Origin: Amycolatopsis mongoliensis | GTDB taxonomy: Bacteria; Actinomycetota; Actinomycetes; Mycobacteriales; Pseudonocardiaceae | DNA: 64,000 nucleotides | Direction of reading: 5' to 3' | Assembly (NCBI RefSeq): GCF_030285665.1 | Contig: NZ_CP127295.1 | Span: 9,486,001-9,550,000 of the forward strand | Part shown: piece after piece, positions 43,672-64,000 of the stretch | Position numbering within the stretch: the first letter of the stretch is position 1 | Layout of the letters: every line of letters starts with the position of its first letter | Notes under the pieces: generated by a model | Told to the model about the DNA's origin: nothing | The model's input: the letters and a program-made list of their open reading frames with translations, nothing else | The model's database searches: none | Translations under genes and position numbers: made by a program

Positions 43672-43673
43672 GC

Positions 43674-46025: not shown

Positions 46026-46116
46026 GATGACATCCTCTCAGGCGAGGCCGCAGCCTCACAGGTGAGGTGTCAACCAGACCCTGGGCAGACCCGATCATCG
46101 TCTACGACGGCGCCGG

Positions 46117-46215
46117 ATGGCGATTGCAGAAGATCGATTCGAGCTGAGGTACGATCAACCCGGCTTCAAGATCGCGTTTCGCGATCCGTGGGGTAATACT
46201 GTGTCCGAGACTTGA
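46117..46215 (+). pseudogene. C-terminal remnant of a glyoxalase/VOC-fold gene
   Basis: The frame from 46117 ends in YDQPGFKIAFRDPWGNTVSE and stop at 46215, matching the last strand of vicinal-oxygen-chelate proteins (FRDPxGN). The rest of the gene is missing on the IS side. In the remaining DNA to 46289 nothing further is seen. Confidence 0.6.
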
Positions 46216-46289
46216 ACCCCCATATGTGGGATATCTCCCGTTTTTGGGGAGATCATGCCATCACTGTAGCGCAGAGTCACCGGACCTGC

Positions 46290-46316
46290 AGGAGCGGTCC
46301 CTGGCTAAACGCTCCT
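46290..46316. terminator. Hairpin at the 3' end of the TPR-NTPase gene
   Basis: AGGAGCG (46290-46296) pairs with CGCTCCT (46310-46316) across a 13-nt loop, overlapping the stop of the minus-strand gene at 46315. No T-run is present; the terminator role is tentative. Confidence 0.35.
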
Positions 46317-49300
46317 AGACCGCCTCTGAATCTTTGGACTCGTTCAAATCCCGGTCGACACCGTTCGCGCGGTGTAGCCGCAGACGGGCCGAACCGCTCG
46401 CACGTCCATCGCGCCAGGGGGGCATCAGGCAGGCTCGTGACGTGGGCGTCGCGGTCGCGATCATCCAGGCCTCACAAAATCCACGCAGAAGCTCCCGCGC
46501 CCCCGAGGAGTTCGCCCCGAGGTAACGGCGAACCCGGGCGAGGTTCTCGAAGGCGCCGAGCCCTCTCTCCAGCCCAGCAGCCATCCGGCCTTTGACGAGC
46601 CGCTCGTCAAAGACGTCGATTAGAACGGCGAGATACTCCACCATCGCGACGACGTCGAGCCGGATACCGGCGAGCCCACTGGGCTCCCCCTTTGCAAAGC
46701 CAGTGCCAGCCACCTTCGCGGCGTACTCGCGCAGTACCCCGCTGGTCAGTTTCCCGACGGGGCGCTCGTCGAGCACGGGGATGAGGGCCGCGCCGGCGCG
46801 GCGAGCGGCCGACCTGCTGACGCGGTCCATCGCGGCACGGGTGGTGCGGTCGAGCTGGCGCTGCACGAGGTGTGCGGCGACAATGGCCAGCTGCTCTTCG
46901 GACTTGTCGCACGCGATTGTCTCCGCCGTCCGGGCCAGCTCCCGCGCGAGGCCACCGGAGAACACGTAGGCGAGCGCGGCAAACTGCTCAGGCAGGTCGC
47001 GGATTCGCCGGTTGAGCAGCGATCTTGCCTGTTCGAAGGAAAAATAGTCGACCCGCACGATAGAGTCGAAGGCACTGTCGAACACTGTTCGCATCCCCAT
47101 CGCGGCGAGCTCGAACTCCGCCAGCGCGTCCTCCGAGACCGACACGAGGAAATAGCAGTTACGTACGTTAAAGACTGCCTTGAGTTCGTTCAGAAAGCGT
47201 TGTGCACCCTCGCCGTCGCTGATCCGGTCGAGCTCGTCGATGCCGATGAGTACTTTCGAGTCATACTCCGCGACGAGCTGCGCGGTCAGCCCGAGGAAGT
47301 CGCGGAACCGGTCGACCAGCTCGGGATGGTTGAGCGGCACGTCGTCCCGCCGCACACTGGCCTTGCTCTTGTACCCTACGTTCGTCGCCTTAAGCGGCGT
47401 GAATCCCAGCGAAAACTCGCCTTCCTTGGTGTGACTCTGCAGGAAGCGGATCTTCTCCCGCTCCTCTCTGGCCAAGGCGGCCAAGTCAGCGGGCTGGACA
47501 CTCCCGTCCGGCTGGGCCGGGCTTGTCAGCCTGAGCAAGCCTCTCGGCGCCGACTCACCTGAGCGGTTCACCAGACCGGGCGAGGTACGCGCGTACTCCT
47601 CAACGGCATCACACAACTTGCCGAACAAATGGGTGAGGAACTCCTTCGACTGGTAGCCGACGGGGGCGTCCACCTTGACGGTCAGGTCACGACGTACCCG
47701 GCGTTCCGACCCGGCGTCGCGCAAGAACTGTCCTGCACACCACCGGTCGAGCAGTGTCGACTTGCCCACTCCTCGCGGACCCGCCAGCGCGAAACTCCCC
47801 TTGCTGCGCTGCCTGAGCAGCCGTCGCAACTCGTCCGAGGCGGGGGTGTCGATCTCCACCGGCGCGTCCGAATACGTCCCGTCCAAGACCGGCAGGCAAG
47901 TGCCGTAGACCCGCTTGAGGCTCGCTCTCGCGCCGATCGCCAAGTGCAGCAACCCGTTGCCGTAAATACTGTTCAGCCATCGGTCGAACGCTTGTTGCGG
48001 AGCACGTGCGCTCGGTTTCGCGAAACGGAGGCGAAGCAGGTTGCCGCCCAGAACCGTACCGATCAGCGCGACCGCCACGACGATCCCGGCGACGCTGCCG
48101 GGCACGGCGCCGAGCTGCTGGACTCCTATCCAAACCGACGCGGCGAGCACCGCGACACTACCCAGAACAGCGAGAACGATGCCGAGATCGACCGGGAGAC
48201 GGACAAACCGGTTCAGCGCGGCGACCGCGAGAAACACCACCGGGAGACCGGCTGTCAACGCCAGCCGCCAGCCCGAAAACGGGTCGCCGTGCCCGGTGGC
48301 CAGCCATACCAGGAGCGCGATCGCGCCGGCCGCGAACCCGAAGGCCGACTCGAACAGCGCACGGCCGAGAAGACGCCACACGACGCCTCTCCGAGCGCGA
48401 TCCGTCCGGACCTGGAACCGGGCCCGCGCGTGCAGATAATTCTGCTCCTCTTCGAACGCACGTTGGAGCAGCGCGCGACGGTCCTCAACCACGCGCTCAC
48501 GCAGACGGCTTACGACCGGCCGGGCCAGTCCGAGCTTCACGCACACCTCGTTCGTGAGCAGTTCCAGCACCTGCTCCGGGTCATCCTTCCCGTTCTCCCA
48601 CGGCCGATCGATCTTCATCTCGATCGTGGGCGACTCGAGCATGCGCCACGGTTCCCGGAGCCACCTCACGGCCGCGTCCACCTTGCGGTTGCCGGGCAAC
48701 TCCGCGCAGAGGACAGCGACAATCTGCTCCGCCTCGGCGATCCGCTCCAGGCTGATCAGTGCTCCCACCTTCGCGATCCGAGCGCTGAGATCGCGCGGAT
48801 CTCGATCAAGCACGGGTTGGTAGGACTCGAGACGCGCGCGCGGTTGTTCGCCCGCGGCCGTCATGATCTCCGCACGGCAGAGGTGCAATTGCGGGCTGGT
48901 CGGTTCGCGCGCGATCGCGGCGTCGACCGCCTGGAGAGCGGATTCGAACCGGTCGTTGCTCAGGTGAATCAAGATCTTTCCGTTGGTTACTCCCGGCAAG
49001 GGCGGGCCGACCCGTTCGGAACGATCGAACTGCTCCATCGCCTGATCGCTCAGTTTGCGATCACCGGTCACCTCCGCGCGGTGCAGAAGCGCCCAGCCGT
49101 AGATCTCGAGAACCACAGCAGGCGGGTCCGGTTGTCTGTTCACCAACTCCTCTGCCTGAGTGACCAGCTCTTCATCGCCGCTTTCGGGCCGCCGCCGCAG
49201 CTCCAGCCGGAGCAATTCCGCTTGAAGGAAATGGGGTTCGTCCTTGATGGCTCGAAGGACAGCGTCCTCGGCCGCCGGCAGATTGTCCTGCTCCAGCCAG

Positions 49301-49779
49301 CACATCGCCCGTTCTACCAACGCTGGTGCGGTCGAACTCAGCCGGGGGCGCATATTTTCCAAGACCTCTTCGGCCCGCTGGAGACGGCCCGACATTCGGT
49401 ATGCCGTCGCGAGGCCGGTAGCCCCTTCGACAGATGATTCATCCAGCTGAACCGCTCTTTCGAAAGCCGCAATAGCCGCTTCGTCGTCCCGCTCGGCGGA
49501 TCCACAGTCGACGGCGAGGTATGACGGGTCGTCTGGCTGACCGAGCGCGACGAGGCCGCGCGCAAGTGCCACGTCGACAGAATCGTCCCGATCACCAAAC
49601 GCTTCAAGTTGGCAGCGTGCGTCGCTCCACCGTCGGAGCATCCACAACGCGCGCACACGTCCCGTCAATGCACGGACATCATTGCCATCTTCGCCGATGA
49701 CTTCGTCAAAAATGGACAAGGCAGCGACGCCGTCGAACCGGCATAACGCGGCATAGCCCTTGTCAAGCTGGGTGCTCAT
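46315..49779 (-). CDS. TPR - four-TM - P-loop NTPase (KAP/STAND-like) membrane protein
   Basis: 1,154 residues, apparently a membrane-tethered signalling NTPase. Residues 1-380 are TPR-like helical repeats. Four hydrophobic helices lie at about 474-494, 505-525, 532-553 and 562-580. The NTPase follows: Walker A GPRGVGKST (667-675), Walker B VLIGIDELDRI (about 843-853), then a sensor-like FLVSVSEDAL and a helical C-terminus. The Asp-Glu-Leu-Asp-Arg box recalls KAP NTPases, but here the TM helices precede Walker A instead of splitting it. ATG 49779 has GGGGAGG 7 nt upstream. Function unknown; the architecture resembles predicted conflict or defence proteins. Confidence 0.85.
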   Translation of the reverse strand: MSTQLDKGYAALCRFDGVAALSIFDEVIGEDGNDVRALTGRVRALWMLRRWSDARCQLEAFGDRDDSVDVALARGLVALGQPDDPSYLAVDCGSAERDDEAAIAAFERAVQLDESSVEGATGLATAYRMSGRLQRAEEVLENMRPRLSSTAPALVERAMCWLEQDNLPAAEDAVLRAIKDEPHFLQAELLRLELRRRPESGDEELVTQAEELVNRQPDPPAVVLEIYGWALLHRAEVTGDRKLSDQAMEQFDRSERVGPPLPGVTNGKILIHLSNDRFESALQAVDAAIAREPTSPQLHLCRAEIMTAAGEQPRARLESYQPVLDRDPRDLSARIAKVGALISLERIAEAEQIVAVLCAELPGNRKVDAAVRWLREPWRMLESPTIEMKIDRPWENGKDDPEQVLELLTNEVCVKLGLARPVVSRLRERVVEDRRALLQRAFEEEQNYLHARARFQVRTDRARRGVVWRLLGRALFESAFGFAAGAIALLVWLATGHGDPFSGWRLALTAGLPVVFLAVAALNRFVRLPVDLGIVLAVLGSVAVLAASVWIGVQQLGAVPGSVAGIVVAVALIGTVLGGNLLRLRFAKPSARAPQQAFDRWLNSIYGNGLLHLAIGARASLKRVYGTCLPVLDGTYSDAPVEIDTPASDELRRLLRQRSKGSFALAGPRGVGKSTLLDRWCAGQFLRDAGSERRVRRDLTVKVDAPVGYQSKEFLTHLFGKLCDAVEEYARTSPGLVNRSGESAPRGLLRLTSPAQPDGSVQPADLAALAREEREKIRFLQSHTKEGEFSLGFTPLKATNVGYKSKASVRRDDVPLNHPELVDRFRDFLGLTAQLVAEYDSKVLIGIDELDRISDGEGAQRFLNELKAVFNVRNCYFLVSVSEDALAEFELAAMGMRTVFDSAFDSIVRVDYFSFEQARSLLNRRIRDLPEQFAALAYVFSGGLARELARTAETIACDKSEEQLAIVAAHLVQRQLDRTTRAAMDRVSRSAARRAGAALIPVLDERPVGKLTSGVLREYAAKVAGTGFAKGEPSGLAGIRLDVVAMVEYLAVLIDVFDERLVKGRMAAGLERGLGAFENLARVRRYLGANSSGARELLRGFCEAWMIATATPTSRACLMPPWRDGRASGSARLRLHRANGVDRDLNESKDSEAV

Positions 49780-50465
49780 CACCGCACCTCCCCACTCACA
49801 GCTTGAGTAGGCCGTCGCCCTCGCTCTGTTACGCAGCTACCCGCCGCGGCAATCTGGTCGTGACACAACTGTGTCGTTACCGGCACACGCGCAGGCAGAA
49901 ATGTAGAACCGGTTCCTTGTTCTTAGGACCACCTGTAATCGGATTCCATTTGGACGCGCGGCCCTGCTGGTTGCCGTTCCAGCGGGTGCGGCGCGCACTG
50001 CGTTTCGACCTGCTTGACGAGAGATAACGACGCCCCGAAAGACACTAACGTAGTCGCGGACTCCGGAAGGCCTCAACAACGAGCTCAAAGTGTACGCCAA
50101 TCGAACAGGACTGGCTCATTAGCGTCTGAGCGCCGCTTTCAGTCCGAACGACTACCTCGCACATGGCTCAACTCGCTACCTGCCTCGCTCAATCCACGAA
50201 TCGGCGCGGGTTAGGTAAAGCACGCGAGGCTTAACCCTGTTGACTTCTTCGACCGCAACCCGCCCTGGATATCCCGAAGTGCGCACTGCTCCCCCGACAA
50301 GCCCCGCCGAGCCGACCGTGACTGAGCCCAGCGGGCCGCACGCCGAGCACGGCTCATCCCATGTCGGCCCGGTCACCAGACGACCTCCGCAGGGGTGATC
50401 CGTTCCTCGCCGGCCTGCCGATCGCCTCGACGGAGCGGCAGAGGACCGCTCGCGCTGAGCCTGGA
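49780..50465. other. Long intergenic region with one perfect palindrome
   Basis: 686 bp with no frame that looks coding on either strand and with lower GC than its neighbours. The only structure seen is GACACA-AC-TGTGTC at 49862-49875, about 85 bp upstream of the TPR-NTPase start, a possible operator. Remaining sequence shows no recognisable gene, RNA or repeat. Confidence 0.5.
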
Positions 50466-51518
50466 CTACGATTCCTCAGAAGTTAACCGCGTAAGGATGG
50501 AGCGCGCGACTGCCCAACGAGCGCCCTCGCGACGGATCCAGCCTCCCGGCGCCAACTGCGCCGCAACGGCCTCGCGGAGAGCCTGCCGTTGTATCTCGTC
50601 GAGGCCGTCCAGCATGGTCTTCGCCAAGAGCAGTCCCTGGTACTGCTCGAACGCCGACCTCGATCGCCCGACGGCGTCGACCACAATGCCGAAGTCGGCG
50701 AGGTCGCTGTTCCCCTGCATGAGCCCGAGTGCGAAGACTCGAACACCAGGGCTGTCCTGCGCGAAGAGTTCACGAGCCTGTTCAGCAGTCCATCCCTGTC
50801 CGGTAGCCGCCAAGCGAGCGATGTTCGTGATGCTTTCCATTTCGCTGGTGCGCAGCGGCCCGGCCGGCAGTTGCCGGCTCTGTTCGTACCGGCGGCCGAA
50901 CGCCTCCACCTCCGGTCGGAGGTATCCGATGGCTTCGGAGCGCAGGGCCTCGGCACGGTCCGAGTCGCCGGAAAGTTCGGCGTACTGCGCCTCGACGAAC
51001 CGGTCGAGCGCTTCGTCGTCCGCCCGGGTCAGTGCGGCCACCAGCAGCAGCCGCGTGGTCAGCCACCCGGCGATGAATCCACCGACCGCGAAGAAGACCA
51101 GCATCGCGCCCACGAACGCGACCGCGGTTCCATCGGGCCGGACGGTCGGGGCCACCACACCGACGAGCCGGCCGAATTCGCGGCAGATGGACCCGATCTG
51201 GGTGAGGCCCGCGCCCACGAGGATCTTCGTCAGCCAGTCGGAGATCTGCTCGAGGTTGGTGTTGGCGGCGTAGTTGCCCGGGCGGGTGTCCGATCGGTCG
51301 CCGGTGGCATTCGCCCACGTGGCGAGGACCTTGGGCACGCCAAACAGGAAACCGAGGAAGCCACCGGAGACGAAGGCCGCCGCGGATACCATGATCAGCA
51401 CCGCAAGGGCTTGGAGCGCCCGGTCGCCCCCGGCGGCGTAGCCGACCTCGACGAGAACACCGAAGCCGACACCGAGTCCGAAGGTGACGAAGCTCCTCTT
51501 CACGACCGTCCCCCGCAT
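50466..51518 (-). CDS. Membrane protein with NTNLEQISDWLTK motif (predicted conflict-system component)
   Basis: About 350 residues. Three or more hydrophobic segments are visible: FVTFGLGVGFGVLVEVGY, QALAVLIMVSAAAFVSGGFLGFLFG, and AVAFVGAMLVFFAVGGFIAGWL. Between them is GFLFGVPK ... NTNLEQISDWLTKILVGAGL, a motif I recall from membrane modules of bacterial conflict proteins, for example ones linked to pYEATS domains. The C-terminal 180 residues are helical and unrecognised. Start uncertain: GTG 51581 would leave only 14 bp to the divergent gene, so ATG 51518 (or GTG 51503) is preferred. Probably works with the divergent STAND/TPR protein. Confidence 0.65.
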   Translation of the reverse strand: MRGTVVKRSFVTFGLGVGFGVLVEVGYAAGGDRALQALAVLIMVSAAAFVSGGFLGFLFGVPKVLATWANATGDRSDTRPGNYAANTNLEQISDWLTKILVGAGLTQIGSICREFGRLVGVVAPTVRPDGTAVAFVGAMLVFFAVGGFIAGWLTTRLLLVAALTRADDEALDRFVEAQYAELSGDSDRAEALRSEAIGYLRPEVEAFGRRYEQSRQLPAGPLRTSEMESITNIARLAATGQGWTAEQARELFAQDSPGVRVFALGLMQGNSDLADFGIVVDAVGRSRSAFEQYQGLLLAKTMLDGLDEIQRQALREAVAAQLAPGGWIRREGARWAVARSILTRLTSEES

Positions 51519-51626
51519 GAGCTGAGCATCGGACGATCGTACCTTTCGACCTTCCGCGGACGGATCTAAACTGTGCGGCACACCTTGGAGTTGATGTGCC
51601 CCTTGATCAGGACACAGAACGCTTTA

Positions 51627-52502
51627 GAGGTTGTCTCATGTGGTGAGTTTGCGGAGTCTCTTGTAGCACGTGAGGCTGGCTCCGAGAATGAGGAAGGCAA
51701 GGAAGTGCTCAGCTTTGCGTTCGTAGCGCAACGTGAGGCGCCGGTATCCGGTGAACCAGGCCATCGTTCGTTCGATCACCCAGCGGTGCCGGCCGAGCTT
51801 GTCCTTGGATTCGATGCCTTTGCGGGCGATGCGGACCTTGATGCCGCGGTCGCGGACCCAGCGCCGCAGGCCGGGCTGGTCGTAGGCCTTGTCGGCGTGC
51901 AGCTTGGCCGGCTTGCGCCGCCGCGGACCACGACGGGACTTGATCGCCGGGATCGCCATCACCAGCGGTCTGAGGGCGTGGCTGTCGTGGGTGTTGGCCG
52001 CGGAGACGGCGACGGCAAGCGGCAGCCCGGCGCGATCGGACAGGGCATGGATCTTCGAGCCGGGCTTGCCGCGGTCGACTGGGCTGGGCCCGGTCAGAGA
52101 TCCCCCCTTTTGGCCCGCACGCAGGCACCGTCCACGATCGCGCGGCTCCAGTCGATGAGGCCCTGGCTGCCGAGCTCGTCCAATAGCGCATGATGCAAGC
52201 GTCGCCACAGCCCGGCTTTGGTCCACTGACCGAAGCGGCGGTGCGCGGTTTGGAACGGCACCCCGAACGACGGCGGCAGATCCCGCCACGCACATCCACT
52301 GGTCAGCACATACACAATCGCCGTGAACACCGCGCGAGCGTCCACCGGCGCCGTGCCACCACCCTGCGGACGCGGCGCGAATACCGGGATCAACGGCTCC
52401 ACCAACGCCCACAGCTCGTCCGGCACCAACCGCAGCGACAACCGATCCACCACAGCCAAGATCATCGCTTACCAGCGCCCGATCACCACGTAAGACACGC
52501 TC
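51627..52502 (-). mobile_element. IS5-family (IS427-like) insertion sequence
   Basis: 876 bp with terminal inverted repeats of about 20 bp (51627-51646 and 52483-52502), sharing TGTCT and GTGGTGA, flanked by the direct repeat TTA (51624-51626 and 52503-52505). It sits after codon 10 of the kinase-like/STAND/TPR gene. The clean target duplication and uninterrupted host frame imply a recent event. Confidence 0.9.
51636..52465 (-). CDS. IS5-family transposase, two frames joined by -1 frameshift
   Basis: The first frame (52465 to 52094) encodes LSLRLVPDELWALVEPLIPV and ends WSRAIVDGACVRAKRGDL. The second (to 51636) resumes GSLTGPSPVDRGKPGSKIHA and holds LHADKAYDQPG (Asp) and RWVIERTMAWF (Glu) of the DDE site. 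The run AAAAGGGGGG (minus strand, 52102-52111) lies at the junction; a -1 slip there yields ...AKRG-GSLTGPSP, the usual sequence of this group. No other damage is seen, so it is likely functional. Confidence 0.9.
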
Positions 52503-55500
52503 TTATTGCCACGATTCCCCACCCGCCGGCCCGCGACGCGCTGCGGACCTGGGCTGCGCAGAACAACATCCAGTTGCGCTCGGAGGGCTGGGTCAGCTCG
52601 GGCTTCACCTCGGCCGTCCTGTTCGGGGTCACCATCGACGAACCGGGCAAGCATCCGCGGTGTGCGATCTTGAAGATCAAGCCGCACGTGAGTCGTTCGG
52701 GAAGCAACGAGAGAACTGCCCACCAGGCCGCGCGACAGGACTCGGAACAGTTCGCGAGCGAACACATGGTCGGCCTCCCTTGCCACGCCCTGGGATTCGA
52801 GGGCGGCGGTCAGCTCATGTTCCAGGACGTCGCCGGTGGCGGATTCGACGAACTGATCGGATCCGGGGAAATCGCCGGGAGGCACATCGCCGTAACAGAC
52901 ACCTACCGCCTCATCATCAAATCGTTGTTGACCGAGTGGAACACGGGAACGAACCGGGTGTCCGGAAGGACATCGGCCGTGCCGGCCGGGAAACTGCTGG
53001 CCGCCCTGCTCGGCGCCCGAATCGAGCCCGGCGGCACCGTCCACGCGTGGGCCGCGGCGCACCCTGGACTCCTACCCGACCCGAGGCGCTGGCTGCGTCA
53101 CGGCGACCTACCCGTCGTCAACCCCTTCGCGCTCGCCAGGGACGAGTCGTTCGCGCGAACCGTGACCGTGCTCAACTTCCCCGGCAAGATCCACGGTGAC
53201 CTCCACCCGGACAATCTGCTGGTGGCGAAAGCCGCCAGTGAGCCGATCAGGTACTACCTGGTCGACCTGTCCCGATACGACCCGCAGGGACCACTGCCGT
53301 GGGACCCCGCCTACCTCATGCTCACCACAGCCGCGCACCACCTGAGCACCTTGAGGCACGTCGATCGGCCGAAACTGCGCACCGCCTTGCTGGACCCGGC
53401 GAACCCCCACGAGGGCGTCCTCCCGGCCGCGCTCGTCCAGACCATGAAGGGCATCCACCAGGGCGAACTGGAACACATCGATCCCCTGGGTCAGGCCGCG
53501 AACTGGCGCAAGCTCCGGCTGGTCTGCGTGGCCGCCATCGGCCTCATCCTCTCCGGGCGCCAGATCATCACCGAGGTCGACCGCGAGTGGTTCTTCTGGC
53601 TGTCCGCGTTCGCCGCCACCGAGCTATTCGGCGACACCGTACCGGACAAGGATCCGCTCGTCCTGCCCGATTCGCTGGTCGCGCGGTCACCGCAACGTAT
53701 TCCGGCATCGCGGCCCGCCGGACACGAGGAGATCGCAGCGAGAGCAGCGAAGGCCGACCACGCGCGCAAGCTCCTCGACCGCGAGGATCAGCAGCTCAAG
53801 CTGAGGACCCGGCTGTCGACGGGCGTGGGTGGCATCGTCATCGTGCACGGCCCGTCGGGTGCCGGAAAGTCCACCCTGGTCGACGCAGTCTTGGCGGAGG
53901 TGGAACAGTCCACCCGGACAAGGCCACGTCGGCGCGAGGCCGTGCCGGACATCCCGTTCGACGTACGCACCTTGACCGAAGCCGTGACCAGTGACTCGGC
54001 ACCGCCCACCGCCGAAAGGGACACCAAGTCCTCCATCGCCCGGCTGGAGGGGGCGCTCGGCGACGAGCCCGTCATCATCGTCGTCGAGAACGCAGAGAAC
54101 TTGCTGAACAGCGCCAGTGGAAAACTGGCCGACCTCGATCTCGACGAGGCGTTCGAGCTGCTGTCGACGTCCCAGCACGCGGTCACGCTGGTCCTCGTCA
54201 CCTCCAGCCCACTTCACTCGCCACACGGTGGCACGTGGCCTCGCAAGGCGGATACCGTCGAGGTGCACGACCTCCCCTACGAGCATTTCGTCGAGTTCAT
54301 CAAGACCTTGGACGACGTCTACCCGTCGGGCTTGTCAGAGCTGTCACCTGACCTTTCACGCCGGTTCCACCAGGCTGTGCACGGCATTCCTCGCGACGCC
54401 GAAATAGCACACGCGATTCTCACCCTCGACGACAGCACCGTCGACGCCCCTTCCCTCGCCGAGCAGCTCACAGCTGTGCCTTCCTCCGCCACACCACGAC
54501 TGCTCGCCCAGATCCTGCTCGATGGCGTCAGCTTCCGCAGGCGCGTTCTCGACGCACTGGCGGCCTTCGCGGTGCCCGTCGCCAGCGACGCCCTGGTAGC
54601 CGTCCTGGCCGAAGAACTCCGCGAACCACAGATCCGGATCGGTCTTCGACAGCTCATTGCGCGACGCATCGTGCGCCAGGCGTCGAACCAGGTGTACCTA
54701 CCGCCGTCCGAGGTCAGAAAGATCCTGGACGAGGAACTGGAAAGCAGCCACTCGAGCCTGCTGCACCAGGCCGCGTACGAGCTGCGGAAGCACCGGCCCA
54801 CATCAGTGCGCAGCCTGGCCGATCTTCGCATCCACTTCGCCGAAGTCTCCTGCTTGATCAGAGCTCGACGATTCGCGGCCGCACACGGGGCGATCGAGTC
54901 GATCGACAGGTTCCTGCGTGACTGGAACTGCAGCCACTTGCTGCGCGAACAGAGCATCGCTGTGCAAGGCCGGACGAAAAGTCCCACTGTGGAGATAGCG
55001 AACGACAACCGGCTCGGCCACCTGCACTCGTTGGCTGGCGAGTTCGGAGCAGCGAGTGACGCCTACGGGCGTGCACTAAAGATCGCCGAGCAGCGCAGGG
55101 ATACGACGAGGCTTACGACACTGCGCTCCAACCTGGCCTCGATGTACGCCCGCCAGAACCAAACTGGGCGGGCGTCCGGCTATTACGACCTCGCCCTCCA
55201 CGACGCAGTCGCCGGGAATCAGCCGACGGTCGCCATGGCAGCGATGGAAGGACTGGCGGACTGCCGCCGTCGGTGGGGGCGGTATGACGAGGCCATCATT
55301 TACGCCGAGCAAGCCCTCGAAGTGTACGACCGGATCGAGCTCGTGTCGGACCGGAAGGCCGCCGCGTCCCGGGCGTTCCAGTGCACGCTCAAGCTGGCGC
55401 GCTGGCACTCCGAGCTGGGATCGCCCGAGCGCGCGGCCCACTACCTCAAAACGGCCCAGCGGACCACGGCACAGCACCCCGACTTGTTCCTGGCAGGTGC

Positions 55501-56091
55501 CTACCTCGACGCTCGCGCCGACTTCGAGCTCGGTTGCGGCGAGATCGGACCGGCGACGGAAACGGCCACGGCGGCCGAAGACTACGCACTGCGGATCGCC
55601 GATCCGGTCACCCTCATGCAGGCACGCACGACGCTCTGCGTCGCGCGCCTCGCCGTCGACGACCGCAGGACCGCTGCTCAGCAGATCATCCGAGCTCTTC
55701 GGTACCGGCGTGTAGGACGCGCACTGATCGTTCTGGCACTGCGGGCGCTGACCGAGCGGCTGCTGAACCACACTGACAGCGCTGACGACTGCTTCCGGCA
55801 GTTGTATGAGGAAACGGCCGGGAGAATCAGGCTGGACAACGACGACTTCACCGCCTGGGACATGCAGGGCTTCGCGCTGTGCGGGCTCGACCCCACCGGG
55901 CCTGCAGTGCTCGACCGGGCGGTCAGGGCGTTCCGGACCGCCCGGGACCTCGCGACTTCGCCGACGCCCCTGCTCGTCGATCGCCTGAGGTTCATGCTGG
56001 CGCAATTGGACCGGGACAGCCGGCACCCCGGGCTGCTGCAGCCGGCCATCGACGGCTGCGGCACCGGCTCCAGCCGCGCCGACTCGCCGGA

Positions 56092-56718
56092 CTAATATCC
56101 CGCGGCCGGCGCCGGGACGAGCCATCCGAGCTCCTGAGCGCGGATTATAGCTTCGGTCCGGTTGTTGACGCCCATCTGCTGGTAGAGCAGCCGCAGAAGC
56201 CGGAACATCGCGCGCTCCGAGTAACCGACATCGGCAGCGAGCCGTGCCACCGTCGAGCCCGCCGCGAGGTGGCGTAGCCACGACACCTGCTCGGGCAGTG
56301 GCACGCCCGCCACACCGGTCTGGGCGGAACCGGCGGCCAGCACTTGCGCGACGGCGGCCGGCAGTACCGCTTGACCGTCGATCGTCGCCTCGACGGTACG
56401 ACGCAGCGCCGCCGTAGTGACATCCCGCCACAGCACCGACCGGGCGCCGGACTGCACCGCTGCCGCCCCGAGCGCCGAGGCGTTCCGCTCCACGAGCGCG
56501 ACCACGAAATGCTCCCTGCCCATGTCACGGAGCCGCCGCAAGATGCTCCACGTATGTTCGGACGACAGCGTCAGCAACACCAGAGTCCGCTGAGCCCTCT
56601 GCGCCCAAGAGAGCACATCCGCCGGACACTCCACGCTGTAGCCGGCCGGTGACAGTACGGAGAGAATTCCCTGCCGGTACATCGGCAACGGGTCGACGAC
56701 GGCAACAGGGACAGTCAC
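56092..56718 (-). CDS. LuxR-type response-regulator-like protein with degenerate receiver
   Basis: About 208 residues from GTG 56718 (TVPVAVVDPLPMYRQGILSVL, the usual receiver opening). The phospho-acceptor position, normally DVVLLDL, reads TLVLLTL with no Asp, so phosphorylation is not expected. The C-terminal HTH (WLRHLAAGSTVARLAADVGYSERAMFRLLRLLYQQMGVNNRTEAI) is a LuxR/NarL variant. ATG 56808 is an alternative start; no clear ribosome site favours either. It overlaps the stop of the STAND/TPR gene by 3 bp, convergently. Likely a regulator of the island's NTPase genes (inference). Confidence 0.72.
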   Translation of the reverse strand: MTVPVAVVDPLPMYRQGILSVLSPAGYSVECPADVLSWAQRAQRTLVLLTLSSEHTWSILRRLRDMGREHFVVALVERNASALGAAAVQSGARSVLWRDVTTAALRRTVEATIDGQAVLPAAVAQVLAAGSAQTGVAGVPLPEQVSWLRHLAAGSTVARLAADVGYSERAMFRLLRLLYQQMGVNNRTEAIIRAQELGWLVPAPAAGY

Positions 56719-56868
56719 CGTTGTCAGCTTAGGCACGCGATCGATCGCACCCGCAGCCGTGCAGGCATGCGCCACGACGTAAGTCACGTTCACGCCAGCT
56801 TCGGTCATAGCCCGGCGGCACCGGCTCTTCTTAGCTTCGAAAGAACACCGAACGTCGGGGAGGGTCGC

Positions 56869-57138
56869 ATGGTCTACGACGACGACACCTACGAGCCACC
56901 GCACCTCTTCATTCCCGGTTCCGATCACCTGGCCGACTACGACCTGGCGCATATCACGGTCGATGCTCTATACCGCGTCGTGGAGCTCAAGAACGCGAAT
57001 CCGGACTGGGGTTCGGAAGACGTCTTCGATCAAATGCTCGACGAAGGTCATCGGATCGAACACGACGACGTGGCCGCACTCTTCGACGCGATCGGCTGGG
57101 ACAACGGCCTGGGTGGAGACGGAATCCCGGTCATGTGA
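56869..57138 (+). CDS. Small acidic protein of unknown function
   Basis: 89 residues starting at ATG 56869 with GGGGAGGG just upstream, a strong ribosome site. It is rich in Asp/Glu (opening MVYDDDTYEPPHLFIPGSDH, then AHITVDALYRVVELK), without hydrophobic helices or Cys. It is divergent from the LuxR-type gene and convergent with the giant ATPase gene. No family recognised. It could be an adaptor or inhibitor for one of the neighbouring large proteins. Confidence 0.65.
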   Translation: MVYDDDTYEPPHLFIPGSDHLADYDLAHITVDALYRVVELKNANPDWGSEDVFDQMLDEGHRIEHDDVAALFDAIGWDNGLGGDGIPVM

Positions 57139-57191
57139 TGTGCCGGCGATTCCGCCTCGTTGCGTTCCGACTGAAGGCCGCTCGCCGGTTA

Positions 57192-60100
57192 TCAATATGC
57201 ACCGTTTCGGCGTGAAGTGGAGGACATGCGCCAGGCCGCCGCGATGACCGGTTCGACCTCCCACAAGCCATCTTGCGGCCGCTCCACGAGCACGTCCAAG
57301 TTCCGCAGGACGTTCATGGTCGCGGCCCCGCCGTGGTCATCGAAAAGCGCCAGGAGATCGTCAATAGCAAGAGCCTCGTCGTAGTTCACGAACTCGCCGA
57401 ACGCGTCTGCGCAAGCGGGCATCGTGGCTAAGCCGACCGCGTCGACCAGTTCTGCCGCGCCTTCCGGCCTGGTGAGCTGCTGGCGGATCTTGTCGCACAC
57501 CCGCCGGGCACTTCGCGCCTCCCCCGCGGCCAGCTCCGCAGCTTGGTTCAGCAAGCTCGTCCAGCCCCCGGTGATCTGGAGCAGCTCTGCCTGACTACCC
57601 GAGTCACTGAAGGACGTCGTCAGGTTGTCCGCTCCGAACCACGAGCGGAGTCCGTCCGCCGAGATGCGGCGCAAGGGGACGACGAGGTCGGCGAGATCGG
57701 CCCGATCCGAACCACAGATCGCGGAGAACACCTCGCCAGCGTCGGCGCTGACCAGCGCGACCACCGTGCGGGTCACCCCGGCGGCGGGCAGCAGCTCGAG
57801 CGCCTGGTGGACCGCCGTCCAGGCGCTTTCGACCTTCATCCCTCCCAGGTCGCAGAACACGACCCGGTGCGGGTCGCCGGGCTTGCCGCCGCGAAGTTCG
57901 CGCCGATAGCTCTCCGGAGACGTCGCCTTCTCCAGCGTGAAACGCGCTCCGACCCGGCGGTCCTCCTCCTGGAGCAGCTGCTGCACGTGGTCGGCGCCCG
58001 TCGCGCGGCTGCCCAGGACCAACCGGAGGCGATTGGAGCGTTCGATCAGCGTGGCGAACTGCTTCTCGGTCAGTGGGGCGGCCAGGCCGTCGGCGACCGT
58101 GCGGCGGGCATTCTCGGCGGCGAGCCTCGTCGGAGCCCGCCATTCCGAGCCGAACAGCTCGTCCTCGATGTCCTGCGCCGAACCCAGCAGGCGCAGGACG
58201 TTGCTGGAGCGCAGCCGCCAGCCTCCGTCCGCCGCAGCGAGCACGCCGAGGCCGCTCATCTCCTCCAAGAGCGACCGAAACTCGTCCGCTCCTTGCCCGG
58301 TGAAGCCGGCGGACCACCAGGAGTGGCATTCGTCGCGCAGCTCGCCGGTCGCCATCGTTCGGTCGGCACCGTGCTCGAGTGCGGCCAAGGCCACCACGAG
58401 GGCGATGAGCTTGTACCGCGAGTCGAGGTTCAGGGTCAGCTGGACCGCTTCCCGGACCTTCTGCCGGACTGTTTCGGATCCGATGACCCGCTCGAGCTCG
58501 TCGTCGTTGATCACGTAGCGCGGGTTGTCTTCGCGTCGCTCGTGCGCGGATCGCACGAGCGCTTCCCCGACGAGCTGCAGGAGCTTGGGCTGGTAGTTGC
58601 AGTACGCCAGGACACGGTGGATGAGCTCGTCCGACGAGAACGAGATGCCCAGCGTTTCCATCGGCGTGAACATCAGCTGGTAAGCGGGTTCCGGGGCCAG
58701 CGGGCCAATCGCCAGCGCATCCCCGAAGTGGGCGGCGGCGAGCGGCTGGTTCGGCAACTGCGCGAACCGCTGAACCTGGTGCAGACCCGCGAAGACCGGC
58801 TTGAACCGGCGTTCCGTCGAGTTCATCAGGTCACGCAGGCGGGTGGTCGTCGCAAAGCCGGTCGTGGCGTCCGCGTCGAAAAACTCGTCGCTTTCGTCGA
58901 GCAGTAGTACCAACCGTCGTTGGGCATCCGCACCCAACCAGGTCTTCACGACCCGTTCGGCGTGCTTGGCCGCATCCCGTCCTCGTTGACCCGGCGCGGT
59001 GATCTCCCGCTCGGCGAGCCCGGCGACGATCATATCCCAGAGCGCGTCCGGCTTTCGCGTCACGCCGAATCCGGGCAGCGAGAGGTATACCGCGATGTTG
59101 TCCGGCGTAACCTCAAATCGGCGAGCCGCCGCCTGCAGCACCGCCGACTTGCCGAGCTGCCGTCCGCCGTAGAGCAGGTTGGCCCCGTGCCGCTCGAGGA
59201 TGGCGGACCGCTCCGCTTGCCGACCTTTGAACATCTCGCTCGGCACGTTGCCCGTCGCATGCGGGTGGTACGGGTTGGTCGTCGCGAAGGGCAGGAGGAT
59301 GCGTTCCGTGGCCGCGAACCGGCCACCGCCGTAGGCGGCGAGGTAGGCCAGTGCCATGTCGTCGAGCATGATCACCGGCTTTTCCGGCCGGGCCGCGGTG
59401 GCTTTGCTCAACGCCCGTCGCTGACTCGCGGAAAGCGTCCCGAATACGGCGACCAGGACGGGCGCGTCGCTCGTGTCCTGGGTGACCCAGGCGAAGAGCG
59501 TCCGAACGTCGGGTGCGTTCCAGCACAGCATGAGCCGCAGCTGGTCCCCAGCCAGGGAACCGAACGCCGGGATCAACGCGTCGCCGACCCGTTTCACGCC
59601 GCTCAGCTCGACCCAGCGCCGGTTCGGCCCGTCGGACAGGCCGGCCGGGCGCTCGGCGGTGAATTCGATCCCGGCCAGCCGGAGCGCCTGGGCCAGCGCA
59701 GGCTTGAACGCCCGGTGTCGCCGGTCGCCACCAAGGTCGAGCCACGCATGCAGCCCGTCGGCCGCCGCGGTGCGTTCCGCCGGGGACAGCGGCCCGAAGT
59801 CCAGGCAGTCCGCGAGGACAGTGCCACTCTCGGCGGCCTTCAGCGCATCGCGCACCACCGTGGCGGGAAGGGTGTCGAGCGCGGTGAGAAACCGAGGCAG
59901 GTCAGGGGATTCCGGTGCGCTCGGCGGCTCTTCACCACCGAGCGCGACAAGCAGGTACTCCTCCGCGGTCGCGAGATCTCCGGCGTCGATCCGGGCGCGG
60001 ATGCGGTCCGCGGCGTTCTCGGGGACGCGCTGCCCGGCCTTGTTCAGCTCGGAGGTCACCCGTTCCCACAGTTCCGCCTTGGCCTTCGCCGCGTACTCGG

Positions 60101-62921
60101 GCAGCCGGCTGTCTATCTCCTCGAGTAGCCGGCGTACCTGGTCCAAGTCGTCACGGTCCGGCCGTGCGGCTTCGAGCTGGGCCAGCACATCGGAGCGCGC
60201 CGATTCCAGGAGCTGCCCCAGCCGGGCGGCTTTCTGGACCCGGCCTTCGATCTCCGTGGCCAGCGCGCGCACCTGGGCTCGTGATCGGGCCACGGCCTGT
60301 TCGAGCCGGTCGAGCAGCGGGGTCATGTCCCGGCCGGCTTCCTCGGCGATCGCGTCGACGATCGTCCGGGCGGCGACGAAGTCCTCGATGGCCAGCCGCT
60401 CGTCGAACGCGGTCTCCCAGCCGGTGCGGTCGGCGAGCCGGATGTCATCGAGCGTCATCTGCCGGGCCGGGACGAGGTCGGCGCTGAGCCGCAGCGGTGC
60501 ACAGCGCAGCAGGTCACGGTTCAGCACTGCGCGCGGGTCGGGCTCGGCACCCTTCAGGCTTTCGCCGTCTAGCATGTCGATGCTCTGTTCGAGCAGAGCC
60601 AGGCAGGTAGTTGCCGCGGCCGCCAGCACGGGGTCCGCACTTTCGTGACGCAGGACATTGAGCTCGCCGGAGGCTCCCTCCCGTTCCTCGAGCACCCGAG
60701 CGCGGAGCTCGGTCACCTGCGCGGGTATCGGGTGGGTCCCGTGCGCGGCGCTGGCTTCCGCTCGCACGGCGTCGACCCACACCCGCACCAGGTCGAGCGA
60801 CTCCGCGACCTGCTCGATGATCTTGCGCCGGGAAGCGCCTTCGAGCGACCGTGAACCGGAGCTGCGCAGGCGGTCGTCGATGGTCTTGAGCTCGGCGACA
60901 AGATCCTGGCGCCGGCTGAGCTTGCGCAGCGTTCCGACCGCGGTCTCGATGTCTTCCCGCCGGTCAGCCGCCGCGATGGCCACCGCCCGCCCGACCAGCC
61001 CGTTCGGTGCCCACCACGTTTCCGCGATCTGGTTGGCCCGCGGGAACCGCAGGTTCCTGCTCCGATCGCGGTCGGCGGCCGCGGCCTCCGCCGCGGCGGC
61101 GATGTCGTTGTCGGCAACGGCGATCGGGGCTAGCTCGGCCAGCAAGGCCTGGTTGTAGAGCAGCCCGCGCGCGGAGGCCTTTCCGATCGCCGACGTCAAA
61201 GCGGTCAGGTGAGGCTGGCGCTCGAAGTGCCCGCTCAGCTCGTCCGCCAGTTCACCGGCATGGGGATCGGCCATCACCAGCGCCGCGCGTACGGCCGCCG
61301 TCAGCAAGGTCAGCTGGGCGGCCTGATGACCGTCGAAACCGTGCAGGTCGAGGTTTTCGAGCGAGTCCCGGACTTCCTTGGCCGTGGTACCCGATTCGGT
61401 CCGGACGGCCGTCGCCAGCGTGAGCAGCCGGGTCGCTTCGGCGAACTGGTCGTCTCCGGCGATGTCCGCGGCGTGGTGGGTCAGAGCGAGCTTGCCGGCA
61501 CTGAGCAGTTCCGCGGTCAGTTGCCGGCCCTCGGTGTCGGCTGCCTGATCGGCGTCGTCCGGCTGATCAGTGGGAGCTGATACATCGGGCGTGGCAGTCT
61601 GCTGGGCGGGAGGCGCCACCGCAAGCGGTGCGGGCGGCGGTTCAGGTTCCGGCGAGGGCTCCGCCACCGGCGTATCACGCGGTTCCGGCTCGTCGTCCGG
61701 GCGGAAGCCGAGCCTGCCCATGAGAGCGATCACGAGTAGTGGCTGGAGGTCGCCGGGCAGTGCCGCCTGCGCCGTCTGGTGGAGTTCGACCACCACGCCG
61801 GGTTCCCCCGCGGCCGCAGCGTCGACCAGGCGGGCCAATGCGGTCAAGCCCTCGGCCCGGCTTCGCCGGGCGTCGTCCCAGTCGTCGCTTCCGAGCAGCT
61901 CACTCGCGGCGCTGCGGACGCTCGCGATCATCTCCCCGTACTCCGGCGGGCCCACGAGACCCTCGAAGCGTTCGAGTTCGGGGTGTTCGTCCGGCCGGCT
62001 TGCCCGCTCGGCCGCCTCCTCCAGCTTCTCGGCCAGAACCAGGCAATTTGCGAACTCCGATTCCGAACTCGCACCTTCGAGAAGGGCTTGCGCCGATTCG
62101 GCCTGCGGTCCGAGGGCCGCGATCGTCGCAAGGTCTTCCGCTGACGCGGTCCGGGAATCCGCCAGTTCAGCGGAAACCCTCGCTGCTGCGCGCTGGGCCT
62201 CCGCGAGGGCTTCGCGGAGCTGCTCGGCCGTCTTGACCAGCTCGTTCACCTCGGGCGCCGGAACGGGAAGAACCGTCTCTGCCGCGCCTCCGCTCACAGC
62301 TTCGAGCTTCCGGCAAGCAGCAACGACGGTGTCGACGAGCTCACTCGGCCAGCTGGGCAACGCAAGCTTGCTGCGCAGCGCGATCCGCAGCGCGGCCACT
62401 GACGCGGGCCCGCGCTGCCAGTCGGCGATAACGGTCAACCGGACCGCGCTCGCCTGAGCCGGATCGTCGGTCAGGGCCTGCCGCAAGCTATCGTCGTCGT
62501 GGCTCTCGCACCATTCGGTCAACGCCGGGGCCAGCGCTCGACGCACTGGCGACACCAGAAGCTGCAAAGCACGCGTGCGCCGCTCCTCGGGCCAGGCCCG
62601 AAGGCGGGTGAGCCCGTCACGCGCTGCCATCGGCGTCGGCCGCTTCGCCGGGGGGACACGCAGGTCGCGCAGGAAATTCGTGCGGTTGGGATTCGGCAGT
62701 CGCCAGACCAGCCGGGAAAACTCCTCCGCCGTCACGAGGTCGAGCGCCGTCTCGACGACGTCGCCGAGCCGGTCCAGCAAACCGGCCAACTCGGCCTGAG
62801 CACGCCGACGCGCGGCCTCGTCCGAATCGGTCGCCGTGGCGGCCTCGGCCAGGAGCTCGGTGGTCCCGAGCGATCCGCCGAAGTCCGTGTCATGACGGTG
62901 ACGCCGGTGTGGAGCGGCCAT
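57192..62921 (-). CDS. Giant (1,909-residue) AAA/STAND-like ATPase of the accessory island
   Basis: ATG 62921 has AGGAAGGTGG upstream. Residues 1-1150 are mostly charged alpha-helical, with a Pro/Glu-rich linker at about 415-455 and possible coiled coils. The ATPase core follows: FKGRQAERSAIL, Walker A LLYGGRQLGKSA (about 1245-1256), Walker B RLVLLLDESDEFFD (about 1335-1348), FAGLHQVQRFA, and a winged-helix-like region around CNYQPKLLQLVGEAL. The last 400 residues, including VVFCDLGGMKVESAW and WGADNL-like segments, are unrecognised. The core resembles archaeal-type/ORC-like STAND ATPases. Its 5' neighbour is 36 nt away and cotranscribed. A scaffold or sensor in a conflict system is inferred. 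Confidence 0.75.
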   Translation of the reverse strand: MAAPHRRHRHDTDFGGSLGTTELLAEAATATDSDEAARRRAQAELAGLLDRLGDVVETALDLVTAEEFSRLVWRLPNPNRTNFLRDLRVPPAKRPTPMAARDGLTRLRAWPEERRTRALQLLVSPVRRALAPALTEWCESHDDDSLRQALTDDPAQASAVRLTVIADWQRGPASVAALRIALRSKLALPSWPSELVDTVVAACRKLEAVSGGAAETVLPVPAPEVNELVKTAEQLREALAEAQRAAARVSAELADSRTASAEDLATIAALGPQAESAQALLEGASSESEFANCLVLAEKLEEAAERASRPDEHPELERFEGLVGPPEYGEMIASVRSAASELLGSDDWDDARRSRAEGLTALARLVDAAAAGEPGVVVELHQTAQAALPGDLQPLLVIALMGRLGFRPDDEPEPRDTPVAEPSPEPEPPPAPLAVAPPAQQTATPDVSAPTDQPDDADQAADTEGRQLTAELLSAGKLALTHHAADIAGDDQFAEATRLLTLATAVRTESGTTAKEVRDSLENLDLHGFDGHQAAQLTLLTAAVRAALVMADPHAGELADELSGHFERQPHLTALTSAIGKASARGLLYNQALLAELAPIAVADNDIAAAAEAAAADRDRSRNLRFPRANQIAETWWAPNGLVGRAVAIAAADRREDIETAVGTLRKLSRRQDLVAELKTIDDRLRSSGSRSLEGASRRKIIEQVAESLDLVRVWVDAVRAEASAAHGTHPIPAQVTELRARVLEEREGASGELNVLRHESADPVLAAAATTCLALLEQSIDMLDGESLKGAEPDPRAVLNRDLLRCAPLRLSADLVPARQMTLDDIRLADRTGWETAFDERLAIEDFVAARTIVDAIAEEAGRDMTPLLDRLEQAVARSRAQVRALATEIEGRVQKAARLGQLLESARSDVLAQLEAARPDRDDLDQVRRLLEEIDSRLPEYAAKAKAELWERVTSELNKAGQRVPENAADRIRARIDAGDLATAEEYLLVALGGEEPPSAPESPDLPRFLTALDTLPATVVRDALKAAESGTVLADCLDFGPLSPAERTAAADGLHAWLDLGGDRRHRAFKPALAQALRLAGIEFTAERPAGLSDGPNRRWVELSGVKRVGDALIPAFGSLAGDQLRLMLCWNAPDVRTLFAWVTQDTSDAPVLVAVFGTLSASQRRALSKATAARPEKPVIMLDDMALAYLAAYGGGRFAATERILLPFATTNPYHPHATGNVPSEMFKGRQAERSAILERHGANLLYGGRQLGKSAVLQAAARRFEVTPDNIAVYLSLPGFGVTRKPDALWDMIVAGLAEREITAPGQRGRDAAKHAERVVKTWLGADAQRRLVLLLDESDEFFDADATTGFATTTRLRDLMNSTERRFKPVFAGLHQVQRFAQLPNQPLAAAHFGDALAIGPLAPEPAYQLMFTPMETLGISFSSDELIHRVLAYCNYQPKLLQLVGEALVRSAHERREDNPRYVINDDELERVIGSETVRQKVREAVQLTLNLDSRYKLIALVVALAALEHGADRTMATGELRDECHSWWSAGFTGQGADEFRSLLEEMSGLGVLAAADGGWRLRSSNVLRLLGSAQDIEDELFGSEWRAPTRLAAENARRTVADGLAAPLTEKQFATLIERSNRLRLVLGSRATGADHVQQLLQEEDRRVGARFTLEKATSPESYRRELRGGKPGDPHRVVFCDLGGMKVESAWTAVHQALELLPAAGVTRTVVALVSADAGEVFSAICGSDRADLADLVVPLRRISADGLRSWFGADNLTTSFSDSGSQAELLQITGGWTSLLNQAAELAAGEARSARRVCDKIRQQLTRPEGAAELVDAVGLATMPACADAFGEFVNYDEALAIDDLLALFDDHGGAATMNVLRNLDVLVERPQDGLWEVEPVIAAAWRMSSTSRRNGAY

Positions 62922-62957
62922 GGTCGGCCACCTTCCTCTTCGAAGTTCGGGTGCGGT

Positions 62958-64000
62958 TCAGTCCGAGATCGCATCGAGCCAGACGGGCCCGGGCTCGTCC
63001 CCGCGGCGATGTCCTCGGACGAAGGTGAAACCAGGCGGCAATTCCACGGATGCGTGCGGTCCGTGAAGGCCGCTGATGTACTTCGCGTAGTTGGCCTTCG
63101 CCTGCTCGCTGGCCCGGAACCCGTCCGGCAGCTGCCGCAGGCTAGGCGGCACCCAGTGCTCCTTGACCTGGCCGGCCAGCCCTCCCGGTCGGCGTGCCTG
63201 ATCGGGGACACGAGGTGCTCCGGCACCGTCGGGCCACCAGACGAAGACGTCCGGTGCCGTCCGGTCCGCGACCGGTTCGCAGGTCAGCTTGCCCGCCTCC
63301 ACCAGATCTTCGCAGGTGTGGATCACCAACCAGAGCAGCACCGGGTTGACCGGTTCCGGCCCGAACAGCGCCGTCATCAGCTGAGGACCGGTGAGCTGCC
63401 GGGCACCGAACGGCCCTGCCTCGCCGTGTCTGCGCAGTGCGTTGACGATAAACCGGCCCAGCGGGTCCACCCCGCGCCCCGGCTTGACACTCCGGGCGGC
63501 CGCCGGCGCGGGAGTGACTGCCTCGGCCAGGCCGAGCGCGGCGGCGAGGAGCTTCTCGTCGGTCGCCCACCGGTAGTCGTCGCCGTAAGGCAGGGGCGCG
63601 TCGAGGAGTGTCGTCGAAAGCGCCACTCGGCGGGCGCCGCACGCGGCGGCGACGGTGACCTTGATCCCTGGGTAGAAGCCGAACGGCCAAGCGATGCCGG
63701 TCAGCCGGTTGTCCGTCAGGACCACCTCCTGGACGCGCATCGCGTCGTCGAGCGGCTCGCCTTCGTGGAACAGGTCGATGATCATGTTCTGGTGGGGGAA
63801 GAGCTCCATGGCGGACGAGGGCAGCGGGAGCACGCCGTTGTCGATGTGCGTCGCGCGCAACGCGACCGTGAAAACGGTGAGGGTGTTGTCGAGGTGTTGC
63901 AGGAGGACGTCGTCCTCGATGGGCTCCTCGCCCCGGGCGGGGTACGGCGCGTTGCGCCACACACCGCCCGCCTGCCACGGATCGTCGATCCGCACGTCGA
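62958..64000 (-). CDS. Unrecognised protein upstream of the giant ATPase, 5' end outside window
   Basis: At least 345 residues in frame from 63995 (GTG) to the stop at 62958; the frame is still open at the window edge, so the true start may lie outside. Features: an N-terminal part with MELFPHQNMIIDLFHEGEP and LPYGDDYRWATDEKLLAAAL, a helical middle with LGRFIVNALRRHGEAGPFGARQL (winged-helix-like), and a Pro-rich C-terminus. No membrane segment, no known motif. Gap to the ATPase start is 36 nt, so the two are an operon and probably work together. Confidence 0.6.
   Translation of the reverse strand, partial: DVRIDDPWQAGGVWRNAPYPARGEEPIEDDVLLQHLDNTLTVFTVALRATHIDNGVLPLPSSAMELFPHQNMIIDLFHEGEPLDDAMRVQEVVLTDNRLTGIAWPFGFYPGIKVTVAAACGARRVALSTTLLDAPLPYGDDYRWATDEKLLAAALGLAEAVTPAPAAARSVKPGRGVDPLGRFIVNALRRHGEAGPFGARQLTGPQLMTALFGPEPVNPVLLWLVIHTCEDLVEAGKLTCEPVADRTAPDVFVWWPDGAGAPRVPDQARRPGGLAGQVKEHWVPPSLRQLPDGFRASEQAKANYAKYISGLHGPHASVELPPGFTFVRGHRRGDEPGPVWLDAISD

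Follow-up and report, generated by a model that had tools for sequence, protein, structure and literature searches.

What kind of system, if any, is formed by the large genes at the right-hand end of a 64,000-nucleotide stretch of the Amycolatopsis mongoliensis genome? This stretch (the window) covers bases 9486001–9550000 of a single-contig 10.81-Mb genome; positions above 64000 continue its numbering (position p of the stretches L002 and L003 corresponds to 60000+p and 80000+p, respectively). The initial annotation named five large or unusual genes here and proposed that together they form one or two undescribed NTP (nucleoside triphosphate)-dependent conflict systems. All five are present as open reading frames (ORFs). 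One of them, a 1,909-residue ATPase, belongs to a mobile operon that we infer to be a putative defence system degrading DNA under the control of a STAND-type ATPase. The ATPase had been described with a single partner, and both genes exist, but the partner (683 residues) is cut by the end of the window, and a third gene lies further upstream. The operon and the recombinase of its element are arranged as follows.

57192–62921, minus strand: P0007, giant STAND/Orc-type ATPase, 1,909 residues, operon gene 3
62958–65009, minus strand: P0009, here called U9, 683 residues, operon gene 2; only its C-terminal part lies inside the window
65006–70828, minus strand: P0010, DEDDh exonuclease–DinG–RecQ fusion, 1,940 residues, operon gene 1, past the window end
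71070–72548, plus strand: P0011, serine recombinase of the element, outside the window and divergent from the operon

The reading frames of gene 1 and U9 overlap by 4 bases, and 36 bases separate the U9 gene from that of the ATPase. Among named organisms, Amycolatopsis azurea has the operon closest to this one.

P0007 has no match in Pfam, NCBIfam or PADLOC (2023 families, E 0.1), and thus none to a known Avs protein model. Its P-loop residues GGR..GK are identical in all 61 aligned sequences, the window included, and the same 61 retain the Walker A motif GxxxxGK[ST] and the Walker B residues DE, with S/T variation at one site. The predicted fold places an AAA+ core at about residues 1216–1595, with a C-terminal winged helix as in the STAND/Orc-Cdc6 clade, after an N-terminal region of about 1,050 residues that lies outside the folded part. 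By this predicted fold the core is a STAND/Orc-clade AAA+ domain, of the same clade as 2qen, 2fna, ORC2, the NLRs, CED-4 and Avs. The differences are that the NTPase lies near the C-terminus of a chain of about 1,900 residues and is followed, where this clade would have a superstructure-forming repeat domain as sensor, by a further alpha/beta and helical module, which structural matches barely cover, and that the structural alignment with Avs3 gives a TMq of only 0.25. Members of the STAND/Orc clade work as switches powered by ATP: when a trigger arrives they oligomerise or are loaded onto DNA.

U9 has a predicted winged helix at residues 512–598. It was found in two of 40 genomes, A. mongoliensis itself and A. 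azurea, and on plasmids all five records with U9 hold the ATPase too, two of them from one strain.

Gene 1 begins with a DEDDh exonuclease followed by a DinG helicase; the DEDDh residues and DinG motifs are kept in 116–119 of 119 sequences, and in 85 of these Walker A and DEAH have no cysteine between them. A RecQ-type helicase with zinc-site cysteines occupies residues 1177–1525 of P0010. In PADLOC it is matched best by typeIV_DinG and DpdF. There are 475 homologous proteins at E 1e-3, and the best 120 of them are nearly all about 1,850–2,190 residues long with the same helicase domains. DinG/XPD-type helicases move 5'-3' and RecQ-type helicases 3'-5' in their families.

The ATPase belongs to a broad family without a name of its own. 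A scan of genome contigs matched at least 591 stretches and confirmed at least 149 loci, 80 of which were read; by record title they come from Actinobacteria, cyanobacteria, Acidobacteria, Proteobacteria, Verrucomicrobia, Planctomycetes, Riflebacteria, Gemmatimonadota and Chloroflexi. Profile searches over these 80 loci and our own revealed a partner family at 73 of 81: gene 1 (F2) with U9 at 15, U9 alone at 12, LPGP at 19, beta-CASP at 16, PLD-SNF2 at six and two kinds at five (beta-CASP and PLD-SNF2 domains were called by Pfam on one member each). Four of the eight loci without a partner are cut by a contig end. Partners on the same strand and within 500 bases of the ATPase are seen in 25 of 26 cases for U9, 18 of 18 for beta-CASP, 21 of 23 for LPGP and 6 of 10 for PLD-SNF2. 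Co-occurrence was counted around the ATPase; the reverse direction, partner without ATPase, was covered for U9 on plasmids.

The LPGP family unites two clusters (hhalign 99.9%) and is marked by an N-terminal LPGPxxFL and a C-terminal RNxLAH motif, the latter fitting HEPN. In both 9-row alignments the R and H of the Rx4-6H motif are invariant, with four residues between them, and one of three members scanned matches HEPN_Swt1 in Pfam (E 0.0026, below the cut-off). One ATPase relative, P0102, contains a fused RNaseH domain of the pPIWI-RE type (Pfam). The ATPase is held by 24 plasmid records, and seven of the 20 plasmid matches listed are annotated as RNaseH domain-containing.

A quick, unrooted tree of 61 of the 81 rows, with several long branches, shows that partners are swapped clade by clade. 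The beta-CASP (12 rows) and PLD-SNF2 (four rows) loci form one clade each, both with support 100, and the U9 rows, with or without gene 1, fall within one 23-row set (support 97) that includes three rows without a partner. LPGP (20 rows) requires four changes, which is consistent with its being the older partner, judging by the sequence tree. Altogether the partner groups require 12 changes, compared with a mean of 35.8 after shuffling. It is an evenly balanced possibility that one giant STAND/Orc ATPase lineage serves as the common control module of an unnamed defence superfamily, with members in Actinobacteria, cyanobacteria, Proteobacteria and further phyla. Into this module unrelated nucleic-acid effectors would plug, namely DEDDh-DinG-RecQ with U9, beta-CASP, LPGP/HEPN-like, PLD-SNF2 and pPIWI-RE, and we give the same even chance to this list of effectors, the branches having so far been seen, if at all, through their effectors only.

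For the operon itself we somewhat favour a role in defending the host against foreign DNA. The ATPase would sense infection or foreign DNA and act as a nucleotide switch, U9 may act through its winged helix as an adaptor coupling the ATPase to the helicase-exonuclease, and gene 1, as the effector, would unwind DNA on both strands and degrade it, much as RecBCD does. The earlier suggestion of a defence-type system that is undescribed and depends on NTP, at a place that is variable and mobile, agrees with the STAND/Orc fold, the recurrence of the operon, the known defence genes next to some relatives and the absence of a PADLOC model for the ATPase. If defence is indeed its role, several unrelated nucleases of bacterial immunity are under the control of one widespread family of giant STAND ATPases. 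This would be relevant to the question of how switches of the NLR kind came to act on different effectors, and gene 1 is then a candidate for a single-chain, RecBCD-like enzyme combining a DEDDh exonuclease, DinG and RecQ. The clear operon and the natural mobile unit make the system testable.

The neighbourhoods were example loci, picked and scanned by eye without a background control. Locus L014 has DruE1 (1,906 bits), followed by the ATPase relative, and a DruK-like PD-(D/E)XK protein; L053 has an SF1 helicase-nuclease, a McrB-type AAA protein and McrC; and in L083, from an actinobacterial metagenome-assembled genome (13575–18917), type III Cas10 and Cas7/Cas5 follow the ATPase relative and a 370-residue gene, with the LPGP family present. 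L049, with one Helicase_C match, is a weak case. Five plasmid regions (L116–L120) were read as well. On the Agrobacterium plasmid pTiCFBP4996 (L120, 5533–18673) the giant ATPase stands with a WYL regulator and an LPGP-like protein, next to ThiF-family and patatin-like genes, a pair that we take to be CBASS-like. The Bradyrhizobium elkanii plasmid (L117, 654–16095) carries an operon of 370- and 1,126-residue proteins, an RNaseH-annotated ATPase protein of about 3,100 residues, in which the ATPase is fused to a pPIWI-RE-type part, and a 549-residue LPGP-like protein; a WYL regulator adjoins, and UvrD/PD-(D/E)XK genes are nearby. In L118 the neighbours include an LPGP protein and one with DUF3320, and in the regions L116 and L119 nothing was recognised among the neighbours.

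Several observations weigh against a defence role of the operon as described. Genes known to PADLOC were seen at just three of the eight genomic loci scanned past the partner (by eye and without the control), and at least four of the eight (L018, L061, L068 and L082) have no known defence gene beyond the partner; the neighbours are a permease and an RNA methyltransferase in L018 and an ABC1 kinase in L061. The C-terminal half of the ATPase has no match in 50,697 phage records, gene 1 has no plasmid match at 1e-50, and U9 shows no recognisable catalytic motif. The helicase polarity of gene 1 is assumed by analogy with the DinG and RecQ families. Finally, U9 and the ATPase stand without gene 1 at 12 loci: in nine of them the sequence reaches over 5 kb beyond the upstream end of U9 and gene 1 was not seen there, and the other three end too early. 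Because U9 and the ATPase also occur without the helicase-nuclease, gene 1 is probably an optional, added effector and not the whole system.

The operon could instead serve DNA repair, replication restart or upkeep of the element, with excised or damaged DNA as the substrate of the helicase-nuclease. Other bacteria use DinG and RecQ as repair helicases (cf. PMC11981726), and in the stretches read a related serine recombinase accompanies gene 1 at four of 15 loci, our own included, and is seen at no further ATPase locus. The remaining 11 gene 1 loci have no such recombinase in the stretch read, however, and the sporadic presence of the operon, its STAND-clade ATPase, the exchange of partners for beta-CASP, HEPN-like and PLD-SNF2 proteins and the known defence genes in some neighbourhoods also count against this reading. 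We consider upkeep or repair rather unlikely.

Abortive infection, in which a phage-sensing STAND ATPase would unleash the nuclease on the host chromosome and kill the cell, seems to us improbable. STAND proteins often drive cell death, and the sister branch has the HEPN-like protein, whose Rx4H motif is a toxin-RNase signature, albeit with the HEPN_Swt1 match of one member in three below the cut-off. On the other hand, this protein was not found at any of the 27 U9 loci, and an exonuclease with two helicases would be better suited to degrading linear DNA than to making one lethal cut.

Turning from these alternatives to the putative STAND-controlled defence operon, its parts are of known kinds. 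Gene 1 resembles ExoDinG, the DinG of Staphylococcus and Bacillus with an N-terminal DEDDh exonuclease, but adds a RecQ helicase and a zinc site in the same chain and stands in an operon with a STAND ATPase. In the accessible part of a 2025 DinG review, none of ten named subgroups, ExoDinG included, is a RecQ fusion, and the word RecQ does not occur. Two helicases of presumably opposite polarity and a nuclease would recall RecBCD on paper, whereas the helicase and nuclease families differ, all are joined in one chain and the partner is a STAND ATPase. The three-gene pPIWI-RE/DinG/REase systems (PMC3702460, 2013, as far as available) similarly combine a DinG helicase with a nuclease, and some members of the ATPase family carry pPIWI-RE as a fusion; unlike in those systems, no pPIWI-RE domain was found in P0007 (Pfam, E 0.1), P0009 or P0010 (E 0.01), and the available text of that paper contains neither "ATPase" nor "AAA".

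The YprA-helicase systems Druantia, ARMADA, BRIGADE and TALON (PMC12458937) also place a giant helicase in a mobile defence unit, as described in the preprint, where DinG and RecQ are not mentioned; gene 1, however, is DinG plus RecQ and not YprA, and DruE is absent from the best 25 of the 28 PADLOC matches of P0010. An Orc/STAND-clade ATPase in a large defence operon is likewise a feature of the ORC/Cdc6 and HerA/FtsK capture systems (PMC10853773, in the portion available). Among 13 proteins scanned with Pfam there was no match to HerA/FtsK or ASCH, nor to the MoxR and vWA domains of the vWA-MoxR ternary systems (Kaur et al. 2020). From the Dpd system, which places deazaguanine in DNA, only DpdF is matched, by the RecQ part of P0010; DpdA and other Dpd partners do not appear among the matches listed for the 11 proteins scanned with PADLOC. 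No description of the triple fusion or the ATPase family was found in the accessible portions of open-licence literature, the scope of the search, including PMC11981726, PMC12458937, PMC11090510, PMC10853773, PMC3702460, PMC3710099, PMC7159879, PMC13316683 and PMC12525004. Within these sources the combination and the exchange of partners look new.

The operon travels in an element whose ends could be located.

46095–46209, plus strand: left direct repeat, 93% identical over 115 bases to 72496–72610
46210–46286: left inner end of the element, 90% identical over 78 bases (from 46209) to the A. azurea element
72496–72610: right direct repeat, which includes the 3' end of the recombinase gene

Both copies of the direct repeat end in TGTGTCCGAG, which, read on the other strand, is the 3' end of tRNA-Leu(GAG); TGTGTCCGAG is found once more at 91626, where a tRNA-Leu(GAG) gene (91627–91711, minus strand) has its 3' end. 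By eye, the left inner end resembles the T-arm of tRNA-Leu (GGGGGTTCAAGT on the minus strand). From the direct repeats, the TGTGTCCGAG core and the T-arm likeness we therefore delimit, at the level of sequence, an element of about 26.4 kb (46210–72610) ending at tRNA-like attachment (att) sites. The island is thus bounded; its left end at 46209/46210 lies 105 bases before the start given initially (46315), and its recombinase lies beyond the window.

A 25.7-kb locus of A. azurea (L004) aligns with positions 57176–72646 at 96% over 15,478 columns; this common block of 15.5 kb is the three-gene operon with the serine recombinase. Within the 100 kb compared, the other matches of L004 are only 46209–46286 (78 bases) and 46095–46209 (115 bases). 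More distant A. azurea stretches show 66–78% identity to pieces of 80.9–87.6 kb, and the tRNA-Leu of A. azurea (presumably genome G006) is about 21 kb from the element. A further relative (G003) is alignable, in the 40 kb compared, only from the tRNA 3' end at 91626 rightwards, while the tRNA-side unit of our genome is shared by G005 and A. azurea (86445–92661 and 87795–91760, about 75%). A second, related serine recombinase frame adjoins tRNA-Leu(GAG). Thus, from the alignments of relatives at the tRNA and this second frame, tRNA-Leu(GAG) looks like an integration hotspot. An empty site was not found, the left flank of the island being non-syntenic in the five relatives compared.

The other four of the five genes first named lie on the left side of the element, on both sides of an insertion sequence (IS).

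46315–49782, minus strand: P0001, TPR-transmembrane-P-loop NTPase, 1,155 residues, cargo
50466–51581, minus strand: P0002, membrane protein with NTNLEQISDWLTK (NTNLEQ protein), 371 residues, cargo
51636–52465, minus strand: IS5-family element, perhaps only a remnant, immediately before the P0005 frame, ends approximate
52496–56095, plus strand: P0005, APH-like kinase domain (by motif), nSTAND1-type NTPase and TPR, cargo, start approximate
56092–56952, minus strand: P0006, degenerate receiver/LuxR-type protein, cargo

That all five genes act jointly as one or two conflict systems is very improbable: they do lie between the ends of one 26.4-kb element, but the left-hand four were not seen in the A. 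azurea element by DNA comparison (nor did P0002, P0005 and P0006 have a protein-level match there, or P0001 one anywhere in the A. azurea genome), the genes face both ways with an IS5-type element among them, and relatives of P0001 and P0002, the two of the four for which scattering was assessed, occur scattered, those of P0001 without the other genes; this is the outcome named initially as refuting the proposal, and it does not apply to the 1,909-residue ATPase. By these comparisons the four are cargo of the same element, outside the operon.

P0001 is as first described, with TPR_19 (4e-15) and AAA_22 (4e-7) Pfam matches and a hydrophobic stretch between them, seen by eye. Some match is present in 39 of 100 genomes, mostly to the ATPase part; full-length relatives exist in four of 99 other genomes, one with an in-frame stop, and the other island genes were not found in the 20 kb around any of these four. 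P0002 carries NTNLEQISDWLTK, as noted initially; at E 0.1 neither Pfam nor NCBIfam nor PADLOC has a match for it. Three partial relatives are found in the 99 other genomes, none of them at the places of the P0001 relatives.

P0005 had been given 1,301 residues (ORF 52190–56095, plus strand). The first ~108 codons of this ORF overlap the IS5-type element, which contains a transposase-like ORF at 52094–52465 (minus strand, judged by eye); eight Rhodococcus plasmid matches cover this part, seven being annotated IS5 transposase genes and one lying in an unannotated record. The N-terminus of the longer ORF is false because the IS5-family element precedes P0005, and the real start is downstream; in-frame start codons past the IS are at 52574, 52670 and 52688. 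The domains held up: Pfam matches AAA_16/nSTAND1 and TPR_12, and the stretch HGDLHPDNLL...LVDLS is presumably a kinase-like motif. Its best plasmid relative is a 1,225-residue TPR protein, 27% identical over 134–639. On a plasmid of Streptomyces sp. NBC_00690 (L121, 5878–10602) a P0005 relative is convergent to an annotated S-4TM pore-forming effector; the convergent neighbour of P0005 in the window is the degenerate LuxR gene P0006, not such an effector. For P0006 the assignment to receiver/LuxR-type proteins is matched by GerE (E 0.021) and a receiver domain (E 0.057) in Pfam and by NCBIfam NarL (1.5e-6), but the Pfam matches are weak and the last is far below the cut-off of its model.

Possible further mobile units flank the element. 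The copy of its right end at 46095–46209 suggests, as far as sequence goes, a tandem, partly deleted neighbour element, and directly left of the island is a transposase-like ORF (43593–45281), which we take to encode an IS30-type transposase. On the right, at 72611–74410 (L002 12611–14410), is P0012 (558 residues), with the lowest third-position GC content (GC3, 0.60) among the stretches compared. The sequence next to the att core (GACGATCTTGCTC...) is present on either side of this unit, in two copies with four mismatches, so that the unit looks like a small cassette of its own at this hotspot. Two nuclease-type genes are found at 75699–78364 (L002 15699–18364), in the interval from the element to tRNA-Leu; one matches Mrr_cat slightly below the cut-off (E 7e-4), the other VRR_NUC (E 2e-14).

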